The position numbers and the translations under genes were made by a program. DNA of 45,129 bases, taken from positions 1 through 45,129 of the IMG/VR virus record IMGVR_UViG_3300031785_000009. The stretch is one strand, 5' to 3'. Positions 8,753 through 43,979 of this stretch are shown here, in pieces (the first letter of the stretch is position 1; each line of letters opens with the position of its first letter). Under the pieces are notes generated by a model. It saw only the letters and a program-made list of their open reading frames with translations, was not told where the DNA came from and did not search any database. The stretch is from a virus.

Positions 8753-11700
8753 ATGAACGACGAAGTATTGAATGAGATAGAAAATGTAGCCCCTATTATT
8801 ACAGACGAAGCTAAAAAACTGTTTGCTGAACAAGACGCCGAACTAGGACTCACTCAGCAAACAACTGTAGACCAAGGTCAGGGACAACAAACTACAGATC
8901 AATCTCAACAGGTTTCTACGGAAACTACACAACAAGAATCTACACCAGTCGAAGCTCAACCAGTTGAAAAAAAAGGTCCTACTAGAAAGGAACTAAAAGA
9001 AAGACTAGAAGAAAAAAAAGCAAAAGGTGAAAAAATTACTTTTGCAGATACTTTTGGTGGTCAATCAGCAGATTTAAGAAACCCTCTTAACTGGGCTAAT
9101 TATGCCTCTGCTGCTGGAGCTGGTTATGTAGATTTTTTAACAGACACTGTAAACCTTATACCCGGGATAAACTTACCTAAGTTACCTAAGTACGAAAGTT
9201 CTACTTTACAAGGTATAAGACAAATGTCTTCTATAATTATACCTTCACTAAACCTTTCTGGTTTTTTAAAAAAACAAGGCGCTAGTGCTCACGCAAAAGT
9301 AAAATGGGCAATGGGTGACAAGCGACTTATGAAGTGGTTTGGTAGTGCTGGTATTGACGCTGCTGCTGGTGCAATAGTAGATCAGGTTGTAGAGTTTAAT
9401 GAATTTGAAGACAACGCATCTGGTGCATTAAAAAAAACTTGGCCAAGTACTTATGGCTGGATACCAGACGACATTGCTACACTCGACACCGATAGTCCTG
9501 ATACTAAAAGAATGAAAAATAGAAACGAAGGCATAGGTCTTAGTTTTTTTGGTGATTTTATATTAGGAGCTACTAAAATAGCTAGGTCTATGAAAGGTGT
9601 AGATGATGCAACTAAGTGGGTACCTAAGAATGAAAAAGCAAAAGAGTTTGTAAAAAACACTTGGGGTAAAGGTACTAAAGATGGTGGTGAAGAAATAACT
9701 GTAAACAACGCTAAACGTGTACAAGAGTTTAATGAAATAGGTAAACGTAATTTATCTCTAGCTACAGATGCAGATGGTAATATTAACTTAGATCAACCAA
9801 TAAAAGGTGTACATGATATATATGATGACTACGAAGTAGGTTTTAGAACAACCGACCCCGGAGGTATTGTATCTGCGTCAGTTGACGTTGTACGTATTAA
9901 TAAGAATATTGACAGTGTACATGGTAGCGTAGGTAGTGTGTTTTCTGACTCTGCATTAAAAGAAGGTCTTAACCTTGATGATGCTGGATTAGGAACTATG
10001 AAACAATTATCTAAAGATTTACAATTAGATATAGAATGGCACTCACCTAATGGTCCAAAAATAACACATGCAGAAGTAGTTAAGAATGGTGAAGACTTAG
10101 CAGCAGCTTTGTATGATATGGATGTAGACGAGATGAAGCGTGTCATAGACAACTTTTCTGGTGTAGACGTAGACTCAGGAACTAGAGTACTAAACTCTGA
10201 AGGTTATGTTGGTGTATTTAATGCTATCAAAAAATACTTTGATGACTACATGAATATGGACTTAGCTCGTGCTCAAGCTTATGTTGGTAAATCTATGGCT
10301 GACCAAGTAAAAGATATGGCAGAAGGTGCTAGATTAATGGATGGTACTGCTGCTGTACAACAAGCACAAGAACAGGTCTTAGATCGTTTACAATATCTAA
10401 TGAATATAAAAGGTCAAACATCTTACGCAAGAGGTAGGGCACTTAATATGATAAACCTTTGGAACCGCATGAAGAAGTTAGACTTTAAAAATCATGGTGG
10501 TAAGAAAAAGGTTATGGAAAATGCACTGGCTTTTATGGAAGGTGCAAACAAAGAAACATTAGATAATTTAAAAAATATAACAAAAGAATCTGCTGAAACT
10601 ATAGACACCATACGTCAAATAAATGCAGAGCGACCAGAAATGTTAAAACCATTAATGTTAGCTTATGAGTTTACTGACGGTAAGGTTAATAACATAGCTG
10701 AACTAAATAGATATTTTAAAAATTCTACTGGTATAATGCGTAAAGCATTTATTGATCTAGACCCAGAATATGAGTCAATGTTTATGCAAGGTGTTTGGTC
10801 TAATATATACAACTCTACTTTGTCAGCTATTGGTACACCACTAAAAGCTGCTGCGTCTAACATGGCTTTGATGATAGAAAGACCTATTGCTACATTAGCC
10901 GGAGCTATAGCGCAAAGAGATGTAGATATTATGAGAAGAGCTAGTTACATGTACTTTGGAGGTATAGGTGATACTGTACAAAAATCTTTCGATCACATGA
11001 GACTTGTGTTTCGTAAAGCATGGACAGACCCTAACTCTGTAGGTTATGTAATGAGAGAAGATATTGCAATTAAGAACGAAGGTCAGATAAAATCTCTTAG
11101 AGCATTTGCAGAAGCACAAGAACAATCAGGTAACTTTGGTCCTTCAGGAATTGTTGACAGGATAGAAGCTATGAATGATATAGCTAATCATCCATGGTTA
11201 CGTTTTAGTGCTAACTCCATGACAGCGTTTGACGGATTTACTAGAGCGTTTATTGGAGCTGTAGAAACTAGAGGTAAAGTATATGACGATATGATAAAAA
11301 GAACTGGTAAAAAAAAACTATCAGCTAAAGGTATTGAAAGATTAAATAAAAAGTATTACAGAGAAATGTTTGATGATACAGGCATGATTACAGATAAAGG
11401 TGTAGAGTTTGCGTCTAAAGAAATAGCTATGAACCTAGACAGTCCTGCTGTTGATAGTTTTAACTCTATTATTAAACGTTTTCCATTACTTAGACCTTTC
11501 TTCATGTTTCCTCGTACTGCAACAAACATGATTAAATTTACTGGTTCACATAACCCATTAGGTTTGTTTGTTAAACAATTTAATGAGTATGGAGAACCAT
11601 TTGCTAATCAATCAATAAGCAATGTTAGAAACTTACTAGAGCAAAGAGGTATTACTGGTTTAGCTGATGACAAGCTAGAAATGGCGTATGAAACAATACG

Positions 11701-12781
11701 TGCAGAATTAAAAGGTAGAAAAGCTATAGGTGCATTTGCCGTATCAGGTGCAGCATTTATGTTTACCTCTGATAGATTACATGGTAATGGTATTTACGAT
11801 AAGACTAGACAACGTACTAGAAACCAACTTGGTTGGCAACCTAGAAGTTACAAAGGTTGGGATGGTAAATGGTATAGCTATGAAGGATTAGGAGCTATAA
11901 GTGATTGGATTGCAGTTACTGCTGACATCATGGATAACTTTGACACACCCGGGTCTGACGGTACTTTAGATACTAATGGTATGGATACTGCTATGGCAAA
12001 AATGATGTATGTGATAGCAGCTAACTTAACAAACAAAACATTCTTAGCTGGTATAGAGCCATTGTACGACGTACTACAAGGTAACCCAAGTGCAACAGCT
12101 CGTTGGACTGCAAGTTTTGGTAGTAGTTTAGTACCCGGTAGTGGACTTAGAAATGAACTATCTAGATTAATGAGTCCCGGAATCAAAGAAGTAGAAAATG
12201 AATTTACACAACTTTTAGCTAACAGAAACCCCGGTGCAAAAGGACAACTTCCTGCTGCATATGACTGGGTAGATGGTGGTAAAGTTAGAGAACCAGACAG
12301 TTTCTGGACAAGAGCATGGAACGCCTACGCACCTGTATTTAAGGTAAGAGAAGGTATGTCTCCAGAAAAACAGTTTCTTATAGATGTAGAGTTTGACGGT
12401 AGACCACAGTTAAATACTGATGGTAACGGTGTTGAACTAACCTCAGCACAAAGATCAGAAGTTACTAGATTAATGGGTGAAGATAAGATCTTTAAAAAAG
12501 CCATTACTAAAATTATGAACTCTGCTGACGGTAAAAGATTTAGAGCTGCATACAAAAAAGCTGCTGAAACTGGTGCAGACATAGATAGAAAACAATTTAT
12601 ATTATTGCATCAACGACTACGTGAGGCATTAACAGACGCACAACAGTTTGCTATTGGTCGAATCTCAGATCGTGGTAATGTTGAACAAAAGCAATATTAT
12701 AATGCAAAAATAAAAGAAGCCACCCAACTTGGAGACGTAGAAGAAATTTTATTACTTCAAGATAGAGCAAATCGTTTGTAA
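8753..12781 (+). CDS. Internal core protein gp16-like
   Basis: 1342 residues, matching T7 gp16 (1318) in length and order. It opens with a Gln/Thr-rich, probably disordered stretch (residues about 25-75), then a charged helical segment. The rest is a long mixed helical protein with Gly/Ala hydrophobic patches that could meet the membrane. I could not see the N-terminal lytic transglycosylase domain of T7 gp16, so cell-wall opening during entry may depend on another protein. The gene follows the gp15-like stop by two bases and is followed six bases later by the tail fibre gene. Confidence 0.85.
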   Translation: MNDEVLNEIENVAPIITDEAKKLFAEQDAELGLTQQTTVDQGQGQQTTDQSQQVSTETTQQESTPVEAQPVEKKGPTRKELKERLEEKKAKGEKITFADTFGGQSADLRNPLNWANYASAAGAGYVDFLTDTVNLIPGINLPKLPKYESSTLQGIRQMSSIIIPSLNLSGFLKKQGASAHAKVKWAMGDKRLMKWFGSAGIDAAAGAIVDQVVEFNEFEDNASGALKKTWPSTYGWIPDDIATLDTDSPDTKRMKNRNEGIGLSFFGDFILGATKIARSMKGVDDATKWVPKNEKAKEFVKNTWGKGTKDGGEEITVNNAKRVQEFNEIGKRNLSLATDADGNINLDQPIKGVHDIYDDYEVGFRTTDPGGIVSASVDVVRINKNIDSVHGSVGSVFSDSALKEGLNLDDAGLGTMKQLSKDLQLDIEWHSPNGPKITHAEVVKNGEDLAAALYDMDVDEMKRVIDNFSGVDVDSGTRVLNSEGYVGVFNAIKKYFDDYMNMDLARAQAYVGKSMADQVKDMAEGARLMDGTAAVQQAQEQVLDRLQYLMNIKGQTSYARGRALNMINLWNRMKKLDFKNHGGKKKVMENALAFMEGANKETLDNLKNITKESAETIDTIRQINAERPEMLKPLMLAYEFTDGKVNNIAELNRYFKNSTGIMRKAFIDLDPEYESMFMQGVWSNIYNSTLSAIGTPLKAAASNMALMIERPIATLAGAIAQRDVDIMRRASYMYFGGIGDTVQKSFDHMRLVFRKAWTDPNSVGYVMREDIAIKNEGQIKSLRAFAEAQEQSGNFGPSGIVDRIEAMNDIANHPWLRFSANSMTAFDGFTRAFIGAVETRGKVYDDMIKRTGKKKLSAKGIERLNKKYYREMFDDTGMITDKGVEFASKEIAMNLDSPAVDSFNSIIKRFPLLRPFFMFPRTATNMIKFTGSHNPLGLFVKQFNEYGEPFANQSISNVRNLLEQRGITGLADDKLEMAYETIRAELKGRKAIGAFAVSGAAFMFTSDRLHGNGIYDKTRQRTRNQLGWQPRSYKGWDGKWYSYEGLGAISDWIAVTADIMDNFDTPGSDGTLDTNGMDTAMAKMMYVIAANLTNKTFLAGIEPLYDVLQGNPSATARWTASFGSSLVPGSGLRNELSRLMSPGIKEVENEFTQLLANRNPGAKGQLPAAYDWVDGGKVREPDSFWTRAWNAYAPVFKVREGMSPEKQFLIDVEFDGRPQLNTDGNGVELTSAQRSEVTRLMGEDKIFKKAITKIMNSADGKRFRAAYKKAAETGADIDRKQFILLHQRLREALTDAQQFAIGRISDRGNVEQKQYYNAKIKEATQLGDVEEILLLQDRANRL

Positions 12782-12787
12782 AAACAA

Positions 12788-15388
12788 ATGGCAACAACTG
12801 AAAATTTTTATACCGGAAATACATCCACCACATCTTTCGGTTACTCATTCCCAATATTACAGAACTCCGATCTTAAGGTAGAACTTGACGGGGTATTAAA
12901 AACTGAAAACACAAGTGGTACTAACAACGACTACTCCATTTCTGGCACAAACGTTGTATTTAACTCGGCTCCCGGGCAGAACGTAGATATTCATATTTAT
13001 AGATTAACAGATGTAGACTCAGCTAAAGCAGTATTTGCTCCGGGTTCGTCTATTAGAGCTGGTGATTTAAATAATATTGTAGATCAATCTTTATTTGCTA
13101 ATCAAGAGCAACAACAAAAAATTAGAACTGCTGACGTTAGAGATAATGCTGTTACAACTATTAAGATAAAAGATCTTAATGTTACAAGACCTAAGATAGC
13201 TAATGATGCTATTGATGGTACTAAGATAGCTGATGATGCAGTTAATTCTGAACATATAGCAGCAGACTCAATAGATGCTGAACATTATGCTCCCGGGTCA
13301 GTAGACACTACAGCTCTTGGAGCAGACTCTGTTACAGGTGCAAAAATAGCTGACGATCAGATTAACTCTGAACATTATATAGCTGGTTCTATAGACCATG
13401 AACATTTAGCTAACGATATAATAGATGGAGACAATATACAAGATGACGTTATTAATTCTGAGCATTATGTTGCAGGTAGTATAGACCACGAACATTTAGC
13501 TAACGATATAATTGACAGCGATAATATTCAAGATAATGCTATTAATTCTGAACATTATGTAGATGGTTCTATAGATCATGTCCATTTAGCTAATGACATT
13601 ATTGATGGCGATAATATACAAGATAACGTAATTAATTCGGAACACTATGCTGATGCTAGTATAGATCATGTTCATTTATCTAATGATTGTATAGATCAAG
13701 ATAATATACAGGATAATGCTGTAAGGTCTGAACATATACAAGCTAATGCTGTTACAGACTCTGAGATAGCAACTGGAACTTTAGATAACAGATATTATAC
13801 AGAAACAGAAGCTGAAGCTTTATTCCTTAGACAGGATTCTTCAGAAACTATTGCTAGTGGACAAACTTGGTCTAACTCAGACGCGTTCGTAGCTACTACG
13901 GCTGCTATTAACGCAAGAATTATTGACCTTGTTGATGAGGTTGGTGGTTTTACTGTTATTGCTACTGAATTAGTTTTTCCAAATACAAACCCACAAGGAG
14001 CTACAGGTCAAGCAGCTATATTAAGTATTGGTTCCTTAACACAGGCTTATACTCCTTCTGGAACTACAGTAACTATTGCAAACGGAACTATAGGAAATAG
14101 CACAGTAACTATTACTGGAGTGCCTTCAGTTTTACCTCAAGGTTTTGGATTATTAGTTGAATCTACTTCAACACTTAACACATATACTTTTCATAGATTA
14201 GTACCTAAAGCTACTGAAGTTACAACAGTTGCAAGCAACATTACTAACATTTCAGCAGCCGGTGCAAACGTTGTAGATATAAATAATTTTGCAGATTTAT
14301 ACCAAATAGGAGGCAGTGCCCCTACACAGAGAGCAGATGGATCCAGCTTACAAGACGGCGATTTATGGTTTGATAATTCCTCCGATAATTTACGGGTATA
14401 TGACGGGACTAATTGGGCTATCGTCACCCCTGCACAGAGTGTTCTTAATGATATTGCTATTGTCTCAGGTGCGATTACTTATCAAGAAGACTTAGGTCTT
14501 ATAAGTGATGCTGTATCTACAGGTAGTTCTAATGGTTCATTAGACATAGTTGCTGATGCTTTAGAAGACGAAAGAACATTTACTGTTACAGCAGCTACAG
14601 GTAAATTTATTATTGATGGTGTTGATAAACCAGCCCTTACATTACACAAAGGTTGGACATACACATTTGATGTAAGTGATAGTTCCAACGGTGCTCATCC
14701 ATTACGATTTTATGCTGGTAGTTCTCAGTACTCAACTAACGTAACTGTTACTGGTACACAAGGGCAAGCTGGTGCAAAAGTACAGATTGTAATACCAGAA
14801 TCTCAACCTAGTAACTTCCAATACTATTGTACAAACCACAGTGGTATGGGTAACACTATAACTGTTGCAGAGGACCCAATTAAAGCTGTAGCTGATATTG
14901 CAGCTAATGTTGTAACTGTGGCTGGTATATCTGGAAATGTAACAACAGTTGCAAATAATAACTCAAACGTAACGGCTGTAGCTGGTAACTCAAGTAATAT
15001 TAATGCTGCTGTAAGTAACGCATCAAATATTAACAGTGCAGTTTCTAATGCTTCAAACATTAACGCAGCAGTTTCTAATGCAACAAATATAAACACAGTT
15101 TCCGCTTCTATAGGTGACGTAAACAGGTATGCAAATGAATACAAAATTTCTAATACTGCACCCGGAAGTCCTAGTGCTGGTGATTTATGGTTTGATGGAA
15201 GTACTAACACATTAAAAAACTATAATGGTTCTGCATGGTTAGGTATTACATCTAACTCTGGAATACAAAACGTGGCTGATGATACATCACCCGAACTTGC
15301 TGCTGCATTAGATTGCAACAACTTTAATCTTACAGAAGTAGGAACTATAAGCGGAAACAATTTACAACTCGATTTCGGTACACTTTAA
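12788..15388 (+). CDS. Tail fibre (gp17-like) with HxH repeats and a cupredoxin-like domain
   Basis: 866 residues. Residues 1-110 form the T7 gp17-type virion-attachment domain, with FxYSFPILQNSDLKVELDG and FAPGSSIRAGDLNNIVDQ typical of it. Residues about 120-330 are repeat-rich and include four 30-residue units (192-311) that each carry SEHY and DHEH or DHVH. Residues about 580-700 resemble a cupredoxin: H637 in GAHPLRFY, then YYCTNHSGMGN giving C681, H684 and M687, a plausible type 1 copper ligand set. Short N-rich repeats (NSSNINAAVSNASNINSAV) precede a C-terminal GDLWFDGSTNTLKNYN motif that also occurs earlier. The protein should bind the host surface. Confidence 0.88.
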   Translation: MATTENFYTGNTSTTSFGYSFPILQNSDLKVELDGVLKTENTSGTNNDYSISGTNVVFNSAPGQNVDIHIYRLTDVDSAKAVFAPGSSIRAGDLNNIVDQSLFANQEQQQKIRTADVRDNAVTTIKIKDLNVTRPKIANDAIDGTKIADDAVNSEHIAADSIDAEHYAPGSVDTTALGADSVTGAKIADDQINSEHYIAGSIDHEHLANDIIDGDNIQDDVINSEHYVAGSIDHEHLANDIIDSDNIQDNAINSEHYVDGSIDHVHLANDIIDGDNIQDNVINSEHYADASIDHVHLSNDCIDQDNIQDNAVRSEHIQANAVTDSEIATGTLDNRYYTETEAEALFLRQDSSETIASGQTWSNSDAFVATTAAINARIIDLVDEVGGFTVIATELVFPNTNPQGATGQAAILSIGSLTQAYTPSGTTVTIANGTIGNSTVTITGVPSVLPQGFGLLVESTSTLNTYTFHRLVPKATEVTTVASNITNISAAGANVVDINNFADLYQIGGSAPTQRADGSSLQDGDLWFDNSSDNLRVYDGTNWAIVTPAQSVLNDIAIVSGAITYQEDLGLISDAVSTGSSNGSLDIVADALEDERTFTVTAATGKFIIDGVDKPALTLHKGWTYTFDVSDSSNGAHPLRFYAGSSQYSTNVTVTGTQGQAGAKVQIVIPESQPSNFQYYCTNHSGMGNTITVAEDPIKAVADIAANVVTVAGISGNVTTVANNNSNVTAVAGNSSNINAAVSNASNINSAVSNASNINAAVSNATNINTVSASIGDVNRYANEYKISNTAPGSPSAGDLWFDGSTNTLKNYNGSAWLGITSNSGIQNVADDTSPELAAALDCNNFNLTEVGTISGNNLQLDFGTL
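13361..13720 (+). repeat. Four 90-bp in-frame tandem repeats in tail fibre
   Basis: Four consecutive diverged copies of a 90-bp unit encode 30 residues each, starting INSEHY and containing GSIDHEHLANDIIDGDNIQD or close variants. Each unit has a DHxH sequence (DHEH, DHEH, DHVH, DHVH). The reading frame is preserved throughout, so this is a protein repeat in the fibre shaft and not an intergenic array. Confidence 0.9.
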
Positions 15389-17602
15389 ATGGCTAAATTA
15401 TTAAAATTAAGGCGTGGTACTACAACGCAGCACGCATCATTTACTGGTGCTGAAGGCGAAGTAACTATAGATACCACAAAAGATACAGCCGTCGTACATG
15501 ACGGCGCACAAGCTGGTGGTAGACCTCTTCTTAGAGAAGACATGTCTAACCTTCCAGCAGGAACAATAGACAACGCAGACGTTAACTCATCTGCTGCAAT
15601 AGCTGGAACTAAAATATCTCCTAATTTTGGTTCACAAGATATAGAAACAACAGGTAATATTGATCTTTCTGATTCAACTGGTTCTGGTAATAACAGAATA
15701 AAACTTGGAACAGGAGATGATTTAGAAATTTACCACCTTGGGTCTAATAATAATTCCTACATAACAGAAACAGGTTCTGGTAACTTAGTTATCGGTGGTG
15801 ACATGGTTAACTTAACCAACGCTGCTACTACTGAATCTTATATGCGTTGTACTGGAAATGGAGCAGTAGAACTATATTACGACAACGCTAAAAAGTTGGA
15901 GACTACAAGTGCTGGTGTAACTGTAACTGGTAATGTGGTAGCTGGTGACTTAAAATTACCTGATAATGGAGCACTTCGTTTAGGTGGAGATGCGTCAGCT
16001 CTTGGAGACTTAAGAATATATCATGATGGTAGTCATTCATATATTAAAGACGCTGGTGCTGGTGATATATTCATTAGACACGGAAATGATGATGCGATTA
16101 GATGTGTAACTGACGGAGGAGTAGAGCTATATCACGACAACGTTAAAAAATTTAATACAGATTCAGGTGGTGCTCAAGTATTTGGAGTTTTAAGATTTGA
16201 TGATGGAAGCAGCTCTACTAATCAGATAAATTTCGGAAATAGTGCTGACCTACAAATTTATCACGATGGAAATTCAAAAATACAAAATACTAACAATAGT
16301 TGTGATTTTAGATTAATTTCAAACTCCATAGAATTAAAAAGCCAAAGCGGTGATGAGTATTTCCAAAAGTGTACAGTTGATGGAGCAGTAGAATTATACC
16401 ATAATAACCTTAAAAAGTGCGAAACTTTTGGAAATGGAATTATAGTTTATGGACCAGAAGGTGGAGGTGGATTAGTTAATCTTTACGCTGATGAAGGTGA
16501 TGATAATGCAGATAAATGGAGAATACATGCAAATCCAAATGGTTCGTTCTATTTACAAAACTATACAAGTGGTTCTTGGGAAAACAACTTAGCAGCTACT
16601 GGTAATGGACAAACAGAATTATTTTACGACAACGTTAAAAGGTTTGAGACAACCTCGCTTGGTGCAACAGTTTTCGCAGAACTAAATATAGCAGGTTCTA
16701 GTAGTGGTACGTCATCTGGAACAGCAAAATTTAAAGGGTATAGAACAGTAGCTGATAATGGTGTGCTAGGAGAACTTCAGTTTATAAACCAAAGAGATAA
16801 TGATGTTCAAGCAAAGATAGAAGTAGTTGCAGATGGTGATACTAATGCTTATATTGATGTTTTTGCATCAACTGCTAACAATAGAACATTTAGAATTTAT
16901 GATGGTAGCGTTGCATTTCCTGATACTAATAAATTGGCGTTGGGAAATGGTAATGACTTACAAATTTATCACGAAAGTGGATATAACATAATAAACACTA
17001 ATACTGCTGGTAATTTAGATATTAAAAATGGTAGTGAATATATAGCTAGATTTGCTCCTAATGGAAACAATGAACTTTTCTACGACAACTCTAAAAAGTT
17101 TGAAACTACAAGTGCTGGTGTAACTGTCAGTGGATCCTTAACTGTTTCTCAAGGTAATTATTCTTACATTACTATGGGCGATAACGACCATGGAGCTAGA
17201 GATATACATAACAACAATAACCAAATTGGGTTTTTGCAACAAAGTGGTGCTTGGGGTGCTTATTGTGATGACAATGGTAACTGGACTGCTTCTGGTAACG
17301 TAACAGCTTACTCTGACTCAAGACTAAAAAGAGATATTTCTACTATTAATGATGCTCTTGGAATTGTAGGTAAACTACGTGGTGTTTCTTATAAATGGTT
17401 AAGAGATGGTTCTGATGGTATTGGTGTCATTGCACAAGAAGTAGAGGAAGTAATTCCTAGTGTTGTAGTTACAAATAAAGTTGAAGGTTTAGACGGAATA
17501 GAAGAAGTCAAATCAGTTGACTACGGAAAAATAGTAGGCGTACTTATAAACGCAATAAACGAACTTAAAGCAGAAGTAGACGAATTAAAAGGAGGTAAGT
17601 AA
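15389..17602 (+). CDS. Second tail fibre with self-cleaving S74 chaperone domain
   Basis: 737 residues. The N-terminus LKLRRGTTTQHASFTGAEGE followed by VTIDTTKDTAVVHDG is an Mtd-type or short-fibre attachment domain. The body has about five diverged repeats, each pairing an IYHDG strand with VELYYDNxKKFETTSAGVTV. The C-terminus (642-737) is a peptidase S74 intramolecular chaperone: S642-D-S-R-L-K647 gives the Ser/Lys dyad with the usual five-residue spacing, followed by GVSYKWLRDGSDGIGVIAQE. In known relatives the chaperone trimerises the fibre and then cuts itself off before the Ser. The gene abuts the first fibre and overlaps the next gene by one base. Confidence 0.88.
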   Translation: MAKLLKLRRGTTTQHASFTGAEGEVTIDTTKDTAVVHDGAQAGGRPLLREDMSNLPAGTIDNADVNSSAAIAGTKISPNFGSQDIETTGNIDLSDSTGSGNNRIKLGTGDDLEIYHLGSNNNSYITETGSGNLVIGGDMVNLTNAATTESYMRCTGNGAVELYYDNAKKLETTSAGVTVTGNVVAGDLKLPDNGALRLGGDASALGDLRIYHDGSHSYIKDAGAGDIFIRHGNDDAIRCVTDGGVELYHDNVKKFNTDSGGAQVFGVLRFDDGSSSTNQINFGNSADLQIYHDGNSKIQNTNNSCDFRLISNSIELKSQSGDEYFQKCTVDGAVELYHNNLKKCETFGNGIIVYGPEGGGGLVNLYADEGDDNADKWRIHANPNGSFYLQNYTSGSWENNLAATGNGQTELFYDNVKRFETTSLGATVFAELNIAGSSSGTSSGTAKFKGYRTVADNGVLGELQFINQRDNDVQAKIEVVADGDTNAYIDVFASTANNRTFRIYDGSVAFPDTNKLALGNGNDLQIYHESGYNIINTNTAGNLDIKNGSEYIARFAPNGNNELFYDNSKKFETTSAGVTVSGSLTVSQGNYSYITMGDNDHGARDIHNNNNQIGFLQQSGAWGAYCDDNGNWTASGNVTAYSDSRLKRDISTINDALGIVGKLRGVSYKWLRDGSDGIGVIAQEVEEVIPSVVVTNKVEGLDGIEEVKSVDYGKIVGVLINAINELKAEVDELKGGK

Positions 17603-25484: not shown

Positions 25485-25745
25485 ATGGAAACTAAGTTAA
25501 AGATAGATGGTTTTAGAAAGTTATATAAGAGTTTGAAGACTCCTTTCCCTCCCTTAAACTTTCTCATTTTGGGAATGTTGATCGGATTAGAGCAGAGATG
25601 GATAGAGTTAAAAGCTGAACAAGCTGTTGACGAAGCTATTGCTGATTTTATGATCGAACATCCTCCAGAAGTGTACAAAGCTGTGGTAAAAGCACACGAA
25701 GACGGTTCATTAAGCATAGGTAAAGCGTATGAAGATCTTCCTTGA
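25485..25745 (+). CDS. Small protein ahead of talC, unknown
   Basis: 86 residues from the ATG at 25485; the frame could extend upstream to a GTG at 25404 but that would run through the hairpin region. A hydrophobic stretch PPLNFLILGMLIGL (about 23-36) may be a short membrane or buried helix. It is followed by an acidic helical region (KAEQAVDEAIADFMIEHPPE). It overlaps talC by 17 bases and is probably co-transcribed with it. The family is not recognised. Confidence 0.62.
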   Translation: METKLKIDGFRKLYKSLKTPFPPLNFLILGMLIGLEQRWIELKAEQAVDEAIADFMIEHPPEVYKAVVKAHEDGSLSIGKAYEDLP

Positions 25746-26379
25746 CACAGCAGTTGTAGACGAAATAGACATTAGATTAGGTTCAGGTGTTATTTCTGGT
25801 GTTACAACTAACCCTACCCTTATTAAAAAGGCTGAACAAGAGCCAGATGTTATATATGAAGAATTAATTAACAATCTTGGCGTTAAAGACTTGTCAATAG
25901 AGGTAAATGGTCAATTTGCAGACCAATTTATAGAAAACGGCATAGCATATGGTAAACTTTGGCCACATCAGGCTACTATTAAGCTACCATGCACGCCTGA
26001 AGGCATAAAAGCATGTAAAACGCTGTCTTATATGGGCATTCGAGTTAATATGACGCTAGTGTTTAGTGTAAGTCAGGCAATACTATGTGCATTAGCTGGT
26101 GCAACCTATGTTTCACCGTTCGTCGGACGATTAGATGACAATGGTCACGATGGAATCGGTCTTATACGTGAAATAGCTAAAGTATACTGTCATAATAGAA
26201 CAGATACTAAGATACTTGCTGCCAGCATACGTGATGCTGCTACAGTTGGTAAGGCATTCCAAGCCGGTGCACACATTTGTACCATACCGCCGAAAGTATT
26301 CGACGATATGTACAAACATGTGCTAACAGATAAAGGATTGTTTCAGTTCTGCATAGACTCAGGACAGATAAACCCTTAA
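25729..26379 (+). CDS. talC: Transaldolase (TalC type)
   Basis: 216 residues, the short form shared with fructose-6-phosphate aldolases and typical of cyanophages. The Schiff-base lysine is K85 in QATIKLPCTPEG. FLDTA at the N-terminus, TTNPTLI and the SPFVGRLDD motif complete the barrel signature. E58 in SIEVN occupies a position where, as I recall, the aldolase subgroup has Gln, so transaldolase activity is favoured. Auxiliary-metabolism role: it shifts host carbon flow into the pentose phosphate pathway for NADPH and ribose-5-phosphate. It is the last gene before the non-coding genome-end region, its usual place in this phage group. Confidence 0.95.
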   Translation: MKIFLDTAVVDEIDIRLGSGVISGVTTNPTLIKKAEQEPDVIYEELINNLGVKDLSIEVNGQFADQFIENGIAYGKLWPHQATIKLPCTPEGIKACKTLSYMGIRVNMTLVFSVSQAILCALAGATYVSPFVGRLDDNGHDGIGLIREIAKVYCHNRTDTKILAASIRDAATVGKAFQAGAHICTIPPKVFDDMYKHVLTDKGLFQFCIDSGQINP

Positions 26380-42899: not shown

Positions 42900-43979
42900 A
42901 TGGCAGCAATCTCACTACAAAGAGACACTACTACCAACTGGGAGAAGTTTTGTAACTGGGTCACTAGCACCGACAACCGCCTATACGTAGGTTGGTTTGG
43001 TGTGCTAATGATTCCATGTTTACTAGCAGCTTCCACATGTTTCATACTCGCCTTTATCGCAGCACCGCCTGTAGATATAGATGGCATACGTGAGCCAGTT
43101 TCCGGCTCGTTATTATACGGAAACAATATTATTTCAGGAGCAGTCGTCCCCTCCTCTAACGCAATCGGACTACATTTTTACCCTATTTGGGAAGCCGGTA
43201 CCTTAGACGAATGGTTATACAACGGTGGACCATATCAACTTATCGTCTTTCATTTTTTGATAGGCGTGCTTGCATACGCAGGCAGACAATGGGAACTATC
43301 ATACAGACTAGGTATGAGACCATGGATATTTGTGGCATACACAGCTCCAGTTTCAGCAGCTCTAGCAGTATTTTTAGTGTACCCTTTCGGACAAGGGAGT
43401 TTCAGTGATGGTATGCCTCTTGGTATTTCTGGTACTTTTAACTTCATGTTTGTATTTCAGGCAGAGCACAATATCCTTATGCATCCGTTCCACATGCTCG
43501 GTGTTGCTGGGGTATTCGGTGGAGCTTTGTTCGCTGCTATGCACGGAAGTCTCGTTACTTCCTCTATTATTAAAGAGACAACAGACGATGTATCGCAGAA
43601 CTATGGTTATAAGTTCGGGCAGGATGAAGAGACATATAATATTGTCGCTGCACACGGGTACTTTGGGAGACTAATTTTTCAATATGCTTCTTTCAATAAT
43701 TCTCGTGCTTTACATTTCTTTCTTGGTACTTTCCCCGTGGTTGGCATATGGCTTACCTCCATGGGAATCTGCACTATGGCTTTCAACCTTAACGGTTTTA
43801 ACTTTAACCAATCAGTAGTTGATGTTAATGGCAAAGTCATACCAACATGGGCAGATGTACTAAACAGAGCTAACCTTGGTTTCGAGGTTATGCACGAGCG
43901 TAACGCTCACAACTTCCCACTTGACTTAGCTTCCACCGAGTCAACTCAAGTGGCTCTATCAGCACCAACTATAGGATAA
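42900..43979 (+). CDS. psbA: Photosystem II D1 protein
   Basis: 359 residues in canonical D1 numbering. Mn-cluster and redox residues are present: Y161, D170, E189, H190, H332, E333, D342 and A344, after which the 15-residue tail is cut by host processing protease. H198 binds P680 chlorophyll, and residue 130 is Gln, the D1:1 form. The five membrane helices and the 225-245 loop ([20 protein letters not shown]) are intact, so the gene looks functional. Phage D1 replaces host D1 during infection to keep electron flow. The start follows the previous gene by six bases; the end overlaps a small basic gene (TAATG). Confidence 0.98.

Follow-up and report, generated by a model that had tools for sequence, protein, structure and literature searches.

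A predicted cupredoxin domain with a putative type 1 copper site in the tail fibre of a T7-like cyanopodovirus

Cupredoxins form a classical superfamily in which the length of the ligand loop varies while the ligands persist, an axial Gln is known as the natural stellacyanin variant, and a first ligand followed by Asn (His-Asn) is typical of plastocyanin and azurin. Metals on phage tails have been discussed for iron, with reference to T4 gp37 and to the Ferrojan or Trojan horse idea. Fibres with iron-binding HxH motifs, including that of alterophage R22Y, have been considered in connection with marine trace metals, and a Trojan horse hypothesis has been formulated for iron (PMC11705849). A viral nirK has also been reported, which is a different gene from the fibre domain described here (PMC8115048). 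In the open-access literature we came across no description of phage tails with a cupredoxin domain, although an earlier mention in a subscription journal, or an assignment in InterPro, is not excluded; the open-access work that joins cupredoxins and cyanophages concerns Borgs, and the titles and abstracts of that on pelagiphages and copper contain nothing on tail copper.

The domain analyzed in this work shares its predicted fold and the His...Cys-His-Met order with rusticyanin (1rcy) and with the N-terminal cupredoxin of NirK (2dv6). However, these proteins act in periplasmic electron transfer whereas the fibre domain sits inside a phage tail fibre, is only about 15-21% identical to them and carries an HP pair at its first His. 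Amicyanin has in common with the fibre domain the C-x2-H-x2-M spacing and the CT.H..M loop, but it is an electron carrier of the host, and roughly one in five of the phage-type domains has a C-x2-H-x3-M loop. Some PF00127 proteins of marine bacteria (HPFYIK...YYQCSxHNGMYGTITV) also show the HP pair and YYxC, and they pass the Pfam cut-off whereas the window domain stays below it. The iron HxH fibres of T4 gp37 and R22Y likewise place metal-binding residues on a phage fibre, but their sites are formed between the three chains of a needle, whereas all four ligands of the cupredoxin site come from one chain. Lastly, the gp9-like protein of S-RIM2 joins a T4_gp9_10 N-terminal domain to a C-terminal cupredoxin domain of the fibre type, and its PDB matches (T4 gp9 and gp10) cover only the N-terminal part and not the cupredoxin part.

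The fibre gene and the predicted fold of its domain

The window, i.e. the whole stretch of 45,129 nucleotides that was analyzed, belongs to a T7-like cyanopodovirus and encodes a T7-type capsid protein, a tail tube protein, a terminase, a portal and an RNA polymerase that shares 73% identity with its counterpart in Prochlorococcus phage P-GSP1 and 61% with the one in P-SSP7 (Table 1). The 866-aa product is matched by PHROG tail-fibre families and is 36-38% identical to the fibres of S-TIP37 and P-SSP2. It qualifies as a T7 gp17-type fibre by its Phage_T7_tail N-terminus (PF03906, E 1.1e-7, residues 8-111) and by the location of its gene directly 3' of that for the internal virion protein.

Table 1. 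Coordinates of the fibre locus, of the candidate ligands and of other genes in the window
Feature	Position	Strand	Support
Internal virion protein gene	8753-12781		
Tail fibre protein, 866 aa, T7-like cyanopodovirus	12788..15388	+	ORF, Pfam, PHROG
T7 gp17-type N-terminal domain, fibre-to-tail attachment, residues 8-111	12809..13120	+	PF03906 above cut-off
Predicted beta-sandwich domain of cupredoxin type, residues 595-694	14570..14869	+	AlphaFold2, Foldseek, VIA, homologues
H637, first of the two putative His ligands (type 1 copper site; HPLRF strand)	14696..14698	+	kept in 61/62 clusters
C681, putative thiolate ligand	14828..14830	+	kept in 60/62 clusters
H684, putative second His ligand	14837..14839	+	kept in 59/62 clusters (aligned column)
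M687, putative axial Met ligand	14846..14848	+	59/62 clusters retain it; a few relatives have Gln or Lys
Following gene, probably for a distal fibre protein with Mtd N-terminal domain + S74 chaperone	15389..17602	+	PF18454, PF13884
Transaldolase	25729-26379		
Photosystem II D1	42900-43979		

Two other repeated elements were observed in the fibre. Residues 196-316 (13373-13735) are made of a 30-residue repeat, NSEHYV.GSIDH[EV]HLANDIIDGDNIQDD, that contains HxH at residues 204/206, 234/236, 264/266 and 294/296; HxH is the T4 gp37 iron motif in trimeric fibres, and most close relatives of the window fibre are devoid of it. The idea that these motifs are part of a cupredoxin system was discarded: of the 48 closest loci, some of which are incomplete, only 4 have any HxH N-terminal of the domain. 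The second element, GDLWFD(N/G)(S)(S/T)..L(R/K).Y(D/N)G..W, is found at residues ~524-547 (14357-14430) and ~798-821 (15179-15250), and the cupredoxin domain lies between its two copies, as though a small module bracketed it together with a spacer.

An earlier note on this DNA had proposed that H637, C681, H684 and M687, in the fibre at 14531-14880, form a cupredoxin-like copper site, and all four residues were located inside that interval with the spacings H637-x43-C681 and C681-x2-H684-x2-M687. Because the whole fibre contains only three Cys and two Met (one of them the start), in addition to 20 His, the C-x2-H-x2-M motif is not expected by chance, the number predicted from composition being 3 x (20/866) x (2/866) = 1.6e-4. 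C681 is the sole Cys of the domain and, therefore, no intra-domain disulphide is possible. Neither a cross-link of the fibre trimer, which the same note had contemplated, nor a disulphide through C681 found support, and this residue looks like a metal ligand.

To obtain a structural view of the domain, residues 588-700 (14549-14887) were modelled with AlphaFold2 from a diverse set of 37 aligned relatives (A1), which yielded ten strands with a mean pLDDT of 91.4 and a pTM of 0.85; the model contains no metal. The stretches TYTFDVSDSS and IVIPESQPSNFQYYC, previously noticed as fitting a Greek key, were both found and each holds a predicted strand, and the His...Cys-x(n)-His-x(m)-Met order occurs with the Cys at a strand end, C681 closing strand 90-94 of the model. 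When this model was compared with the PDB by Foldseek, 13 of the 14 rows with E < 0.001 were of cupredoxin fold, the top proteins being Hyphomicrobium NirK (2dv6), rusticyanin and multicopper oxidases including laccases; the sole other row was Shewanella SO1698, and AcoP, plastocyanin, amicyanin and CuA domains stood just under these rows. VIA superposed the model on the N-terminal cupredoxin of 2dv6 (residues 24-137) with Z 9.0 and rmsd 3.0 over 100 residues, and on rusticyanin with Z 7.6, and its matches also included coagulation factor VIII domains.

Because Z values of 7-9 are by themselves only moderate, an independent replicate was modelled from 17 other sequences, the C-terminal domains of gp9-like tail fibre connectors, which are distantly related to the window domain. 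This second AlphaFold2 model (pLDDT 91.0) gave rusticyanin as its first Foldseek match (E 1.6e-5), and VIA aligned it with the NirK cupredoxin (2dv6) with Z 10.1-10.2 and rmsd 2.4 over 93 residues and with rusticyanin with Z 9.0. The structure prediction and fold search suggested in the earlier note hence returned a cupredoxin from two independent models, so that a fold of another kind, which that note had given as grounds for refutation, was not observed, and, as far as predicted models go, the fibre domain meets the description of a Greek-key beta-sandwich cupredoxin. When the PDB was searched by sequence alone, with the domain or with the A1 profile as query, the top rows were Fc-receptor and antibody chains, which have YYC in common with the query, and the best plastocyanin stood at E 0.17. 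An Ig-like decoration domain was nonetheless rejected because cupredoxins rank first in the structure searches of both models and the domain has a single Cys instead of the Ig pair.

Conservation of the putative ligands

All four ligands were invariant in a first set of relatives. Since one of the six search peptides held the Cys-His-Met loop, the conservation test was repeated without ligand bias. Bacterial genomes were scanned with a ligand-free pattern, GT[PQA]G[SQN][AS]GA[YKT][VT], and in the resulting alignment of 51 sequences (50 domains and the window) the first His, the Cys and the second His were each present in 50, and the axial position was Met in 48 and Gln in 2. The viral scans used ligand-free patterns, plus one scan with the Cys in one of its two patterns; detection was then repeated on the pooled domains with a profile in which the four ligand columns had been masked, giving 250 unique domains, 238 of which have H, C, H and M complete. 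When these domains were grouped at 60% identity, which gave 62 clusters with 40% as their mean pairwise identity, the four ligands were retained in 98, 97, 95 and 95% of the clusters, and all of them fell within the eight most conserved of 114 columns. The earlier note had also named freely varying ligands as an outcome that would refute the site, and the survey ran against it.

The exceptions among the 250 domains were two changes of loop length that keep the residues (C-x4-H and C-x3-H), four replacements of the axial Met by Gln or Lys, five domains without the Cys, in all of which the adjacent His is also absent, and one without the first His. Some of the apparent losses in the H684 column are, accordingly, loop-length changes. 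As to spacing, C-x2-H-x3-M replaces C-x2-H-x2-M in about a fifth of the domains, and C-x3-H or C-x4-H are rare. The ligands are thus kept through changes of the loop, Met gives way to Gln, and Cys and His are lost together, a pattern that would be expected of a type 1 copper site. That the site binds copper is an inference in which we have good confidence, although there are no binding data and the convergence of the ligands and their distances remain unchecked in the model.

A few relatives have an axial Lys or miss both Cys and His and, therefore, the fold can exist without the site. This observation bears on a reading in which the domain would be a metal-free sandwich derived from a cupredoxin, with the four residues kept for packing alone. 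Copies without Cys, His and Met are indeed still recognisable, and the factor VIII domains among the structural matches indicate that a type 1 site is not obligatory for the fold. Nevertheless, the four potential ligands occupy the exact cupredoxin positions, rank with the best-conserved columns and survive changes in loop length, and Cys and His disappear jointly, which makes packing alone a very improbable explanation. As a separate observation, a contig of Prochlorococcus AG-418-C09 (L128) encodes, in a frame from position 456, a protein of 2,078 aa with four cupredoxin-like copies, whose ligand states are V-C-H-M, H-C-H-M, H-C-H-Q and, in one copy, absence of Cys, second His and Met.

Relation to accepted copper-protein families

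The window domain reaches 13.7 bits with the Pfam Copper-bind model (PF00127), under its curated cut-off of 21.2 bits. Copper-bind was, however, the Pfam family that the 37 members of A1 matched most often, if weakly (16 of them, best E 0.0017), and in Prochlorococcus phage P-HM1 a second domain takes an intermediate position (Copper-bind E 0.0014). Several of the bacterial genomes that contain the domain also encode proteins above the Copper-bind cut-off, and four of these, from marine bacteria (L146, L147, L148 and L150), read HPFYIK...YYxCSxH..(..)GM.GTI.V. When a profile of these four proteins was aligned with A1 by hhalign, a probability of 97.4 (E 9e-12) was obtained with the ligands paired H-H, C-C, H-H and M-M; the probability was 96.2 with all nine Copper-bind sequences, and the real pair scored 62 whereas the maximum of sixty column-shuffled controls was 17. 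Being below the cut-off yet related at the profile level, the window domain is a relative and not a Pfam-defined member of PF00127; it joins the cupredoxin superfamily by fold and ligands, and not that family by score. The relationship with bacterial proteins and with Copper-bind proteins makes a host origin of the domain plausible.

The first ligand, H637, is followed by Pro (HPLRF) and not by Asn. The His-Asn feature is not strict, since of nine accepted Copper-bind members compared five have HN and four have HP. As regards the likeness to amicyanin that had been suggested from the ligand loop, the spacing does match, but it is the NirK N-terminal cupredoxin and rusticyanin that are closest in fold, and the residue after H637 is Pro; furthermore, the NCBIfam amicyanin model TIGR02657 matched neither the fibre nor the domain, and PHROGs and NCBIfam offered no copper-related name for the fibre. 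We also observed that PF25489, a plant-named family (At5g54830-like), gives repeated weak matches (best E 0.0017) in 13 of the 17 gp9-like domains (L382:1474-1824, L131:3890-4318), and its domain may be distantly related to the fibre cupredoxin family.

Distribution of the domain and its possible roles

Among GenBank phages, 282 records match the domain, nearly all of them cyanophages, with pelagiphages and OM43 phages in addition, and no match was found among 72,556 plasmids, which led us to dismiss a plasmid origin. The domain is located in podoviral fibres (the window phage and pelagiphage Baldr), in the tail fibre of P-SSM2 and in fibres of Mosig, Melnitz and Bellamy. In S-RIM2 and ACG-2014d it lies at the C-terminus of gp9-like connectors and in parts of the following baseplate subunit, and in P-GSP1 and P-SCSP2 it lies at the N-terminus of another tail-region protein that is not the main fibre. 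The fibre loci of P-SSP7, P-SSP2 and S-TIP37 contain no cupredoxin domain. Given this placement in different tail proteins, its absence from some fibre loci and its one to three tandem copies, the domain behaves as a mobile accessory module of tail proteins in cyanopodoviruses, cyanomyoviruses, pelagiphages and OM43 phages. The earlier finding is confirmed and reaches further than was claimed for it.

Outside the phages, one copy each was found in marine flavobacteria (L123, L095, L105 and L114), in open frames of ~5,500-9,200 aa. The scanned N-terminal part of the L123 protein carries DUF7507 repeats and C-type lectin domains, and the latter suggest that surface adhesion is a setting common to the phage and the flavobacterial proteins.

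On the basis of what is established here, namely the gene, the residues, the predicted fold, the Copper-bind homology and the near-invariant ligands across many marine phage tail proteins, we interpret residues ~595-694 as a cupredoxin that has diverged but whose type 1-type copper site is complete, and that forms a mobile accessory module midway along the fibre chain. We give this reading a probability of roughly 0.7, bearing in mind that no metal has been measured. Sites with a single Cys and two His bind several soft metals, and a structural site for Zn, Cu or a mixture of both could also be envisaged, which would hold the sandwich of a decoration domain together extracellularly without copper-specific or redox chemistry. 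The repetition and relocation of the domain in one to three copies, as in Ig-like decoration modules, and the absence of any apparent redox partner would agree with such a site. A structural Zn site, however, would not need the axial Met, which is kept at the frequency given in Table 1, and its rare replacement by Gln is typical of type 1 copper sites, so that we regard a merely structural metal as unlikely.

If the domain is a copper-binding cupredoxin, its loading has to be accounted for. Because free copper in the cytoplasm is vanishingly low, we propose that the fibre would be made there in the apo form and would acquire copper on lysis or in seawater, an inference on which we would place even odds. 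More tentatively, and with somewhat more doubt than trust, bound copper may rigidify or activate an adhesive domain in its contact with the cell surface, rather than serve in an electron-transfer chain. If the fibres are trimers and there are six per particle as in T7, a virion would carry up to 18 sites. In the related phage P-SSP7 the fibres change from a folded to an extended state toward infection of Prochlorococcus (PMC5345008) and, therefore, a metal-dependent stiffness of a domain in the shaft could matter, although this is conjecture.

The same fibre states during adsorption (PMC5345008), together with the complete four-ligand site and the fact that most isolate matches infect cyanobacteria, would also suit a redox or copper-sensing switch, in which Cu(I)/Cu(II) cycling or the sampling of copper tunes fibre conformation and adsorption at the host surface. 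In contrast, the domain also occurs in Pelagibacter and Methylophilales phages as well as in giant proteins of bacteria, and it is therefore not tied to photosynthesis; moreover, P-SSP7, P-SSP2 and S-TIP37 manage without it at their fibre loci. We thus hold such a switch to be quite unlikely. Least credible to us is a copper version of the Trojan horse, in which a metal-uptake receptor of the host would recognise the copper of the fibre; its precedent is the hypothesis made for iron HxH fibres of marine phages (PMC11705849). A buried type 1 site, however, would not expose its copper to a receptor. In addition, Prochlorococcus and SAR11 have, to our knowledge, few or no TonB-type receptors for metal chelates. 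Returning to the copper-binding cupredoxin, its boldest extension would be that marine phage tails carry blue copper modules, on fibres, gp9-like connectors and baseplate subunits, that are loaded outside the host and whose copper binding or redox change controls fibre conformation and adsorption, making the virion a carrier of copper that also responds to it; we present this as a speculation that will probably not hold.

Should the assignment be true, a four-ligand copper site that is conserved in tail proteins of different kinds would link some of the most abundant viruses of the ocean to copper, a trace metal that is both scarce and toxic, through phages whose hosts are Prochlorococcus, Synechococcus, Pelagibacter and OM43 bacteria. 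It would provide a concrete site (one Cys, two His and one Met) for asking whether virion metals serve adsorption, stability or sensing, and a name for a domain that hundreds of phage genomes list merely as "unknown" or "tail fibre".

A minor observation concerns the pelagiphage records OQ414635 and OQ414636 of GenBank, where Hodr and Baldr seem to have exchanged locus tags, EXVC031PHodr tags being attached to the Baldr record and EXVC032PBaldr tags to the Hodr record.
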